64,000 nt of DNA from Pegethrix bostrychoides GSE-TBD4-15B (GTDB lineage: Bacteria; Cyanobacteriota; Cyanobacteriia; Elainellales; Elainellaceae): the NCBI GenBank assembly GCA_019359155.1, contig JAHHHV010000003.1, positions 1 to 64,000 of the forward strand, written 5' to 3'. The notes beneath the pieces were generated by a model. The model was not told where the DNA came from, searched no databases, and was given only the letters and a program-made list of their open reading frames with translations. A program made the translations under genes and the position numbers. Each line of letters starts with the position of its first letter. Within the stretch, counting starts at the first letter, position 1. Shown here one piece after another: positions 42,057-44,790 of the stretch.

Positions 42057-43298
42057 TCAGCCGCGCTCGCTGGCTTTAGGGCTACGGCGATCCAGCTGCA
42101 TGGCCTGCTCAATTGCTAGCTTTTCACGGGCGCGACGGGCATAGGGCTGGAGCTTTGCCAAATCTTGCCCTGTCAAAATGCTGAGGTTTTCTAGGCTCAT
42201 GCCGCGCATCAGCATTTCAACCGCCCAGGTTTGAGCGGCTTGAGCGAGAGCAGGCGGCTGACTGTCGGGGGTGAGCAGGTCGGCTGTCCAGTCCTGCCAG
42301 CGTTGGGCAATGGCTTCAGCGGTGACTGGCTGGCCATTTTCATCGATAAACAGGGCGGGGTGGCGATCTTTGCGGCTTTTGAGCCATTTGGTCAGCGGAT
42401 TGTTCAGATAAGAACCATAGCGGCTACCCGCGATCCACTGGTTGACGGCCACCTGCCGACTGCCGCTGCTGCTCACGACCTGTAGCAGATGCTGCTGGCT
42501 GCTGCTGATCTGCTGCGATCTTTGTAGGCTAGCCAGTTCATTCGGCGAGAGTCCGGTGGCAAACAGTAGATAGGCTAGCGCGGAATCCTGGGGGCTAGCC
42601 TTGCGCGCCCGCTGCAAAATTTCTTGCACCAGCGGCGCGGGTAGATCGTGGATTTCATGGATTTCGGGGATTTCAGCAGTTTCGGCAGGGGCAATAGAGC
42701 TGGCTGGAGCCACAACTGCGCTCAAGAAAAGCTGGACTAGCCCTTGCAGAAAATCCTCGCGGTCTTGCCAGAGCTGATGAAACTCACTGGTGAACTCAAT
42801 AGCGGCATAGCCCAGCAGCAGCCCATTCAACAGGCTAGCTAGCTTCTCAGGCGGCAGCATGGGGCTGAGGGCTGTTTGTTCAATGACCTGAGCCAGATAG
42901 CGTGTCAGCACCTGGGTGGCTTCGGTCAGCCGAGCCCCAAGCGCCTCACGGTTTTCGGGCGGAAACTGGTTGGCCTCACCAATTAGGGAGCGAATTAGTT
43001 CGGGCACTTGCTCTAGCGAACGCAGGTAGAGGCTGGCATAGGCCATCAGCGCTTGGTCAAAGTGGCTGGCTGAGGTGAGGCGCTGGCTCAGGGCTTCGCC
43101 GAGATGCGTAAAGGGAGTAGACTCCTGAATCACAGCTAAGAGCAGCCCGTACTTGTTACCAAACTGCCGAAATAGGGTGACTTCGTTCACCTCGGCGGCG
43201 GCGGCAATTTGGCGAGTAGTGGTGCTGCTCACGCCTTGAGCCACGAATAGCTCTAAAGCAGCTTGGATCAGGCGCTGTCGCGTCGTTTGAGAGGACAT
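42057..43298 (-). CDS. TetR-family regulator fused to a degenerate tyrosine-recombinase-like domain
   Basis: About 413 aa, more than twice a normal TetR. An N-terminal TetR helix-turn-helix (MSSQTTRQRLIQAALELF, 'TTTRQIAAAAEVNEVTLFRQFGNKYGLL') and an all-helical ligand domain end near residue 200. From about residue 225 the sequence resembles an integrase catalytic domain: 'LAYLLFATGLSPNELASLQ' (normally GLR-x-SEL), 'LNNPLTKWLKSRK...PALFIDENGQPV', and 'AQTWAVEMLMRGMSLENLSI', then LTGQ and PYARRAREKL. The catalytic Arg is Ser, and the His/Arg and LGH residues are lost, while the Tyr remains, so no recombination is expected; it may aid DNA binding or multimerisation. The start is placed at the TetR Met; an upstream TTG at 43346 is possible. 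It is divergent from desC, with two palindromic sites between them. Confidence 0.85.
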   Translation of the reverse strand: MSSQTTRQRLIQAALELFVAQGVSSTTTRQIAAAAEVNEVTLFRQFGNKYGLLLAVIQESTPFTHLGEALSQRLTSASHFDQALMAYASLYLRSLEQVPELIRSLIGEANQFPPENREALGARLTEATQVLTRYLAQVIEQTALSPMLPPEKLASLLNGLLLGYAAIEFTSEFHQLWQDREDFLQGLVQLFLSAVVAPASSIAPAETAEIPEIHEIHDLPAPLVQEILQRARKASPQDSALAYLLFATGLSPNELASLQRSQQISSSQQHLLQVVSSSGSRQVAVNQWIAGSRYGSYLNNPLTKWLKSRKDRHPALFIDENGQPVTAEAIAQRWQDWTADLLTPDSQPPALAQAAQTWAVEMLMRGMSLENLSILTGQDLAKLQPYARRAREKLAIEQAMQLDRRSPKASERG

Positions 43299-43413
43299 TG
43301 CGGAGAAGATGAATGAGCCATGCCTTGAGCTGTGTGGAGCCTGCAAACCTAGATGTAAGCAAATATGTAAGCAAAGCTTGGCACAAAAACTAAAAAACTA
43401 GATGAAGATAACG

Positions 43414-43430
43414 TGCAAGCAGCACTTGCA
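43414..43430. promoter_or_regulatory. Palindromic operator 1 for the TetR/desC region
   Basis: TGCAAGCAGCACTTGCA: 6-bp arms TGCAAG and CTTGCA around a 5-bp centre, followed by TTTT. An identical 17-mer lies 48 bp away at 43462-43478. The size and symmetry match TetR-family operators. It overlaps a possible -35 (TTGCAT at 43426-43431) of a promoter facing the desaturase gene. Confidence 0.75.
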
Positions 43431-43454
43431 TTTTGCGGACGGGGCTGTTAGGAT
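43426..43454 (+). promoter_or_regulatory. Candidate sigma-70-type promoter of desC
   Basis: TTGCAT (43426-43431) and TAGGAT (43449-43454) are 17 bp apart, facing the desaturase gene. The -35 overlaps operator 1 and operator 2 begins 8 bp after the -10, so a bound regulator would cover both sides of the polymerase site. This fits the consensus loosely and is an inference. Confidence 0.45.
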
Positions 43455-43461
43455 AATTTCA

Positions 43462-43478
43462 TGCAAGCAGCACTTGCA
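43462..43478. promoter_or_regulatory. Palindromic operator 2 for the TetR/desC region
   Basis: A second exact copy of TGCAAGCAGCACTTGCA, followed like the first by TTTT-rich sequence. It lies about where transcription of desC would begin, 73 bp before the start codon at 43551. A misleading ATG at 43461 that overlaps this site would lengthen the desaturase frame and is rejected. Confidence 0.75.
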
Positions 43479-43550
43479 TTTTACTATAGCAGTCGTTCTG
43501 TAGCAGTCGTTTACAGTCGGCTCTCATTGCAGGCTGAAAAGGAATTTTCT

Positions 43551-44402
43551 ATGACTTCACTGACCGCTCCTAAACCGGCGCTGAGCTGGGTAAACGTGGG
43601 CTTTTTTGGGGTGTTTCACGCGCTGGCGCTGCTGGCTCCCTGGTTTTTCTCTTGGTCGGCTTTGGGGGTGGCGGTTTTGCTGCACTGGCTGTGCGGCGGG
43701 ATTGGGATCTGCTTGGGCTACCATCGGCTGCTGAGCCATCGCAGCTTTAAGGTGCCGAAGCCGCTAGAATATTTGATCGCGATTATTGGGGCGCTGGCCA
43801 TCCAGGGCGGACCGATTTTCTGGGTGGCGGGGCATCGACAGCATCATGCTCACACTGAAGATTTGGTGAAAGATCCGTACTCAGCGCGGCGGGGCTTTTG
43901 GTGGAGTCACTGGCTGTGGATTCTGTATCCGAGTCCGGAGGCGTTTCGGCAGGAGCACTATGGCAAGTACGCTCAGGATTTGATGCGGCAACCGTTTTAT
44001 CGCTGGCTGAATCACAACTTTTTGATCTTGCAGCTGCCGCTGGGGCTATTGCTCTATGCGCTGGGCGGCTGGTCGTTTGTGATCTACGGAGTTTTTGTGC
44101 GGGCGGTGCTGATTTGGCATTCGACTTGGTTTGTGAATTCGGCGACGCATCGCTGGGGATATCGGACGTTTGCAGCAGAGGATGGGTCGCGGAATCTTTG
44201 GTGGGTGTCGCTATTGACTTATGGCGAGGGTTGGCATAACAACCACCATGCCTATCCGCATTCGGCGCAGTCGGGTTGGCGCTGGTGGGAGATTGATACG
44301 ACTTGGATGATGATTCGGCTGCTGGAGTCGGTGGGATTGGCGACGAAGGTGAATACGCTGAAGTCGGTGGGGGCGGAACGCGGGAGTAAGCTGTCGGGGT
44401 AG
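43551..44402 (+). CDS. desC: Fatty acid desaturase (delta-9 type acyl-lipid desaturase)
   Basis: 283 aa. A membrane di-iron enzyme that inserts a double bond into lipid-bound acyl chains. The three His boxes are HRLLSH (residues 58-63), HRQHH (95-99) and HNNHH (about 235), each with the right spacing, together with several hydrophobic segments and the 'GGIGICLGYHRLLSHRSFKV' and 'YGEGWHNNHHAYPHSA' surroundings of the DesC/acyl-CoA desaturase group. The start is ATG 43551, with AAAAGGA nine bases upstream; an earlier in-frame ATG lies inside the operator. The gene is divergent from a TetR regulator with two operators in between, so control by fatty-acid status (as DesT does in Pseudomonas) is likely. 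Delta-9 specificity is from motif similarity only. Confidence 0.9.
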   Translation: MTSLTAPKPALSWVNVGFFGVFHALALLAPWFFSWSALGVAVLLHWLCGGIGICLGYHRLLSHRSFKVPKPLEYLIAIIGALAIQGGPIFWVAGHRQHHAHTEDLVKDPYSARRGFWWSHWLWILYPSPEAFRQEHYGKYAQDLMRQPFYRWLNHNFLILQLPLGLLLYALGGWSFVIYGVFVRAVLIWHSTWFVNSATHRWGYRTFAAEDGSRNLWWVSLLTYGEGWHNNHHAYPHSAQSGWRWWEIDTTWMMIRLLESVGLATKVNTLKSVGAERGSKLSG

Positions 44403-44412
44403 ATGGTTTGGG

Positions 44413-44790
44413 GGTTGGAGAGAGTCTGGGTTCCGAGCCGAAATGCTTGGGGGCAGGCCCCCAAACCCCCGTCAGGGGACGCTGTCGTCCCCCGACACCC
44501 CCTCACAAAGTGTCGTATCTGTACAGCGCCAGAGATAGGGGATGGCATTGTTTTGTTGCGTTCTATTGTTTGCGTCGCGTATTTGCGTCGCGTAGAACTG
44601 TAAAACTCAGGCAGGTTTCCGGCCTCGCGTCACGGAGGGACAAGTTTAAAACCCCACGAGGCGAAGCGAAACTGAGATACATACAGATATACCCTTAGTC
44701 GGGGTTGTAGGGGCGGACTGCCGTCCCTGCCGAGGGTTTGGGGGCTGCTCGCCCCCAAGCATTTCGGCTCGGAACCCCAAATCTCCAGCC
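44413..44790. mobile_element. MITE-like element with long imperfect terminal inverted repeats
   Basis: The left end (GGTTGGAG...GGGTTCCGAGCCGAAATG, 44413-44470) and the right end (44733-44790) are inverted copies over about 50 bp with few mismatches, for example GGGTTCCGAGCCGAAATGCT at 44428-44447 against its complement at 44758-44777. The roughly 260 bp between them has no gene. Inside, 44471-44496 folds into a strong hairpin (GTCAGGGGAC pairing with GTCCCCCGAC). The intergenic location between desC and gmk and the lack of coding sequence fit a miniature inverted-repeat transposable element. I cannot see a target-site duplication clearly. Confidence 0.7.

Follow-up and report, generated by a model that had tools for sequence, protein, structure and literature searches.

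The two identical palindromes lying between a TetR-type regulator gene and the divergent desaturase gene desC of Pegethrix bostrychoides GSE-TBD4-15B are very probably paired operators through which the regulator represses the desC promoter. The window, a 64,000-nucleotide stretch of this genome, contains the 17-mer TGCAAGCAGCACTTGCA at 43414-43430 and again at 43462-43478 of the forward strand, 48 bp from start to start, exactly where the first-pass annotation had placed the two copies. Each copy has the arms TGCAAG-N5-CTTGCA and the spacer CAGCA and is followed directly on its 3′ side by TTTT, as that annotation had also noticed, so that the perfect direct repeat extends over 21 bp and contains a 6-N5-6 palindrome in each unit. 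These copies are referred to as sites 1 and 2 (no strand assigned) and are both predicted operators.

Further genomic copies of the 17-mer were sought, as had been suggested at the outset. The whole 5.7-Mb genome contained only these two exact copies, both at the desC locus, and the exact arm pattern TGCAAG-N5-CTTGCA was likewise restricted to this locus. With no more than two exact copies, the 17-mer cannot be counted among the common repeats of the genome, which the first-pass annotation had named as a refuting outcome. The window contained 13 perfect 6-N5-6 palindromes versus approximately 19 expected, and the twin pair was the sole one of these with arms recurring within 200 bp, an arrangement that was produced in any form by 1 of 200 simulated 64-kb sequences. 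The identity of the two spacers is peculiar to the Pegethrix genome; a close relative, G013, has the same 48-bp distance with spacers that differ between the sites (CGCTA and TGATG). A third, degenerate palindrome, TGTAAGCAAAGCTTGGC at 43366-43382 (no strand assigned), matches at 9 of 12 arm positions and keeps the 48-bp register of the twin sites. A local alignment of its region to the site 1 region was equaled by 6 of 2,000 shuffles, and the third palindrome was absent from G013, the nearest relative. As judged from this alignment, it probably arose by tandem duplication of the site 1 region and has since decayed, and it is doubtful whether it has a function.

The sequence between the twin sites contains a promoter directed at desC. 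The −35 element TTGCAT (43426-43431, forward strand) is located inside site 1, whose right arm supplies it, and is separated by 17 bp from the −10 element TAGGAT (43449-43454), which is preceded by TGT to give an extended −10 (43446-43454, forward strand). The first-pass annotation had described a −35-like element overlapped by the first palindrome and a −10-like element ending just short of the second; both placements were confirmed, and the former overlap was conserved in relatives. From the conserved geometry of the −35 and extended −10 elements, the desC transcription start is predicted to fall at approximately the first base of site 2, which would therefore cover it. Downstream of site 2 is an element, ACTATAGC (43483-43490, forward strand; family pattern ACTnTARC), which is conserved across loci, being present 2 to 12 nt 3′ of site 2 in 87 of 132, and which is partly duplicated in tandem here as a 14-bp unit (43484-43511). 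The first bases of site 2 also include an ATG in frame with desC, and initiation there (43461-43550) would add 30 residues to DesC; most relatives have ATGTAAG at site 2, so that the ATG is followed immediately by a stop codon.

The arrangement was then examined across the cyanobacteria. The regulator gene was located beside desC in 26 of 36 genomes of the same order, and two palindromes were detected at all 26 of these loci. A phylum-wide search with one genome per species detected full-length fusions of the regulator in approximately 40 of 386 sampled genomes, belonging to 12 families, and a separate search found a fusion in a 13th family, giving conservation over at least 13 families. A scan of named genomes provided 80 loci (Nostoc, Calothrix, Scytonema, Acaryochloris, Spirulina, Leptolyngbya, Oculatella, Xenococcaceae, and others). 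The additional loci obtained with the regulator as query in these searches numbered 110, and every one of them had an adjacent, divergent desC and twin sites. The footprint was compiled from 132 distinct loci with paired sites between a TetR gene and a divergent desC. The arms, TGYAAG-N5-CTTGCW, were nearly invariant over these loci, the central bases varied, and the distance from site to site was 46 to 48 bp in 120 of them. An extended −10 of the form TGnTAnnnT, directed at desC, was present between the sites in 130 loci, with a spacing from the TTGCA of site 1 of 17 bp in 111, 18 bp in 16, and 16 bp in 3. Site 1 coincided with the desC −35 in nearly all of the 132 loci. A palindromic operator (predicted) overlapping the promoter of the adjacent divergent gene, as looked for in a TetR-type system, was thus found throughout this set.

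In loci where the regulator lies farther from site 1 (Pegethrix, L106, L193, and others), both sites stayed with the desC promoter, and both were also kept in L038, which has an extra 12 bp between the −10 and site 2. In L202, site 1 is located 85 bp from site 2 and upstream of a separate promoter (TTGTCA-17-TAAGCT) and is still conserved; conservation away from the −35 indicates that site 1 has been retained for operator function and not merely as a −35 element. In most genomes the two arms of site 2 are not symmetric, the left arm being TGTAAG in 116 of 132 and the right arm CTTGCT in 70 of 132, and this asymmetry may give site 2 an affinity different from that of site 1.

Another explanation for the conservation of the palindromes is that they act as RNA, with the desC mRNA beginning in a hairpin that serves as an attenuator, stability element, or terminator. 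The mRNA would start with site 2, a G-U pair is retained after the frequent C-to-T change at the third arm position, and in the Pegethrix genome a T tract follows the site. Site 1, however, has the same motif but precedes the desC start, 70 of 132 site 2 copies have lost the outermost pair, and the motif is strictly linked to the TetR gene and absent at desC paralogues, all of which make a hairpin role hard to credit.

This linkage was investigated by scanning the 386 genomes blindly for the strict twin pattern. Matches were obtained in 11 genomes, all of them immediately upstream of the gene for this regulator and none elsewhere. Conversely, 26 desC-family genes without the regulator, including a second gene of this genome (L062, 75% identical) and genes of G015, G023, and G026 that are 63 to 70% identical, had no upstream site, even with up to 2 mismatches allowed. 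Among the 10 members of the order that lack the regulator, 7 also lack the linked desC subfamily. The sites could in principle belong to another, unlinked DNA-binding protein, as their assignment to the neighboring protein rests on sequence comparison. Such a protein is very unlikely, since twin sites occur solely where the regulator gene adjoins and DesC2 relatives without the regulator have none. The palindromes are almost certainly the own operator pair of the neighboring TetR-type regulator, as proposed in the first-pass annotation and as judged here from the 132-locus footprint, the 386-genome specificity, the siteless regulator-less desC genes, and the TetR-only lineages described below.

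A wider regulon was considered and rejected. In the Pegethrix genome, sites with one mismatch numbered 16 versus approximately 13 expected by simple counting, and in the 36 genomes of the order the pattern TGYAAGYNNNRCTTGCA was detected at 9 places outside the regulator locus, about the same as a reversed control pattern. With degenerate sites elsewhere at the control level and a second conserved target not found in these genomes, the circuit appears to have one target, desC.

The target gene, desC (43551-44402, forward strand), encodes a protein of 283 aa with a match to FA_desaturase (Pfam, E = 1.5e-19), in agreement with the initial description of a desaturase. The assignment was refined with the histidine boxes of clade delta9-1, GICLGYHRLLxH, Wx3HRxHHAx3D, and YGEGWHNNHHx2Px5Gx2WWE, as given in PMC2593844. 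In a scan with the motifs of that paper, allowing K or R before SF in the first box, the window desaturase had 3 of 3 clade delta9-1 boxes and 0 DesC1 (clade-2) boxes, while a paralogue in the same genome (L063) had 3 of 3 DesC1 boxes. A tree separated the DesC1 and DesC2 groups with full support and placed all tested TetR-linked desaturases in the DesC2 group. The target is, hence, classed by sequence as a DesC2-type, clade delta9-1 acyl-lipid delta-9 desaturase, with a presumed action at sn-2. It shares the clade delta9-1 boxes with DesC2 of Nostoc sp. SO-36, described in the available parts of PMC4390868 and PMC2593844 as an sn-2 delta-9 acyl-lipid desaturase; those parts mention no regulator of the Nostoc enzyme. 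The second DesC2-type gene, L062 (contig C82), has no operator and has approximately four tandem copies of TTTTATCCATTCTG just upstream. Between desC and a guanylate kinase gene is a MITE-like element (44420-44785) with 35-bp inverted arms, 91% complementary and 296 bp apart; elsewhere in this genome, contig C77 has two facing copies of the arm sequence (91689-92005) and C23 has a single copy.

The regulator gene (42057-43298, reverse strand) encodes 413 aa and combines a TetR part with a degenerate tyrosine-recombinase-like domain. Pfam detected TetR_N (PF00440) with an E value of 3e-14 and 53 bits against a cutoff of 24, and the N-terminal helix-turn-helix was also evident by AlphaFold and Foldseek. 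The C-terminal half matched Phage_integrase slightly below the cutoff (E = 6.9e-06) and, weakly, the XerC/XerD models of NCBIfam. Within the TetR part (residues 1 to 200; 42699-43298, reverse strand) is the recognition region VNEVTLFRQFGNK, in which VNEVTLFR (residues 37 to 44) was invariant in 47 aligned fusions and kept in the TetR-only relatives that were read. Paralogous TetR proteins have VAEGTLFRHFENK or similar in this region, unlike VNEVTLFR.

Lineages in which the regulator consists of the TetR part only made it possible to separate the contributions of the two halves. In G030 and G031, both sites are kept and neither genome has a match to the recombinase-like domain; this loss is nested among fusions. 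TetR-only forms in family f25 likewise keep the sites and the recognition helix, with long branches in the tree of domain gain and loss. In six TetR-only genomes of one genus (g74), only one site is kept, a perfect palindrome located on the −35, and site 2 is lacking, while one relative, G422, is TetR-only with two sites. A rule by which the second site depends on the recombinase-like domain is therefore not supported, G030, G031, and G422 being TetR-only with two sites. Because TetR-only lineages keep both operator and recognition helix, the TetR half would suffice to explain the operator and probably reads the palindrome, and the C-terminal domain would be dispensable for operator recognition. 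As a separate observation, loci L198, L199, and L259-L264, all from one genus, are TetR-only with one operator and an apparent remnant of the left half of site 2, and this genus looks like a natural one-site version of the circuit.

The C-terminal domain was analyzed by profile, structure prediction, and residue counts. The part resembling an Int/Xer catalytic domain (residues 218 to 405; 42084-42647, reverse strand) matched the XerC-like protein 4a8e in an hmmsearch profile comparison (E = 7.4e-07). An AlphaFold model built with 47 sequences was confident, with a mean pLDDT of 89 and with most of the C-terminal domain exceeding 95, and Foldseek returned XerA (5hxy) first (E = 2.5e-06) and TetR regulators next. 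Both the 4a8e profile and the 5hxy match thus identified the Int/Xer catalytic-domain fold. The R...HxxR...H/W...Y active site was not retained in an alignment of the 47 fusions to 4a8e. The first catalytic Arg (residue 251) is Ser in 36 of 47; the catalytic His (residue 352) is Glu in 23 and Ala in this protein; the second catalytic Arg (residue 355) is Gln in 35 and Ala here; and the H/W position (residue 378) is Trp in 23 and Gln here. At the Tyr position (residue 386), 43 sequences have Tyr, 3 have Phe, and 1 has Leu. By sequence, the domain is a pseudo-recombinase that is predicted to be catalytically dead. It resembles XerA, XerC, and XerD in profile and fold of the catalytic domain but differs from them in lacking the active-site R-H-R and the N-terminal core-binding domain and in having a Tyr that is not strictly kept.

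A fused domain with an Int/Xer fold and a mostly conserved Tyr, together with near-identical sites flanking a promoter, could point to twin palindromes that are recombination sites, for example of an invertible promoter. However, the two arginines and the histidine of the active site have given way to other residues, TetR-only lineages retain the sites, and the promoter is directed at desC in 130 of 132 loci; for these reasons the proposal was rejected, its probability being close to nil. Conservation of the domain over 13 families nevertheless argues that it has some role. Xer/Int proteins form tetramers, and by analogy the four C-terminal domains of two TetR dimers could clamp the 46- to 48-bp promoter and make repression cooperative, an idea that we regard as speculative and rather unlikely. 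If it were true, a domesticated recombinase fold would be a working part of a repressor, and site 2 would become less necessary once the domain was lost.

The sequences themselves show the sites, the promoter geometry, their conservation, linkage, and specificity, and the domain composition of the regulator, whereas binding by the regulator, repression (from the geometry), autoregulation, and a ligand are parts of the circuit that we infer from these comparisons. In the preferred reading, one TetR dimer on site 1 would cover the −35 and one on site 2 the start point, and the two together would block RNA polymerase, switching the DesC2-type desaturase off. As site 1 is located 5 to 20 bp upstream of the regulator start in most relatives, the regulator would probably limit its own expression too. 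No convincing promoter for the regulator gene was detected on the reverse strand, between or beyond the sites, and with this promoter not recognizable, autoregulation is only a guess. A ligand reporting the state of membrane lipids or acyl chains would presumably release the regulator, and the circuit would thereby set the level of membrane unsaturation. The main live rival is that the regulator activates desC, by DNA bending or by recruitment of polymerase from the two sites. TetR-family activators exist, and the desC −35, TTGCAT, is far from ideal; on the other hand, sites on the −35 and +1 constitute the classic geometry for blocking, seen in 130 of 132 loci, and an extended −10 is present, so that activation is considered improbable.

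Control of a delta-9 desaturase by a TetR protein would be a known kind of system. DesT of Pseudomonas aeruginosa is a TetR repressor of the desCB acyl-CoA delta-9 desaturase and senses acyl-CoA saturation. The first-pass annotation had proposed repression as in DesT but with a distinct operator; the distinct operator was upheld, while the likeness to DesT holds as an analogy only. Both systems have a TetR-family regulator with an operator (predicted here) at a delta-9 desaturase promoter, but the present one differs in having a cyanobacterial acyl-lipid DesC2-type target, a palindrome of its own (TGCAAG-N5-CTTGCA), twin sites, and a recombinase-like C-terminal domain. The 60 PDB sequence matches listed included no chain named DesT. 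Because the desaturase here is of the acyl-lipid type, acyl-CoA, the ligand of DesT, is not to be taken for granted as the ligand. FadR- and PfmR-type regulators of fatty-acid metabolism (Bacillus subtilis, Bacillus halodurans, and Thermus) share the TetR fold and were among the closer structural neighbors of the TetR half by Foldseek, but their identity is 17 to 21% and they are without the C-terminal extension. The operators and targets of these FadR- and PfmR-type regulators also differ from those described here.

The searchable literature, outside which most subscription papers fall, contained no description of this operator, the twin layout, a cyanobacterial DesC2 target, or the fusion, and no cognate transcription factor for a cyanobacterial delta-9 desaturase was found in it. 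For such a desaturase, the present analysis provides a predicted regulator-operator pair whose conservation extends over at least 13 families, and it brings to light a fusion of a TetR protein with a domesticated recombinase domain that, by its residues, would be catalytically dead. It also offers a compact, predicted single-target repressor-promoter pair, and it opens the control of lipid desaturation, presumably at sn-2, to direct tests in Nostoc or Leptolyngbya, which are genetically tractable.
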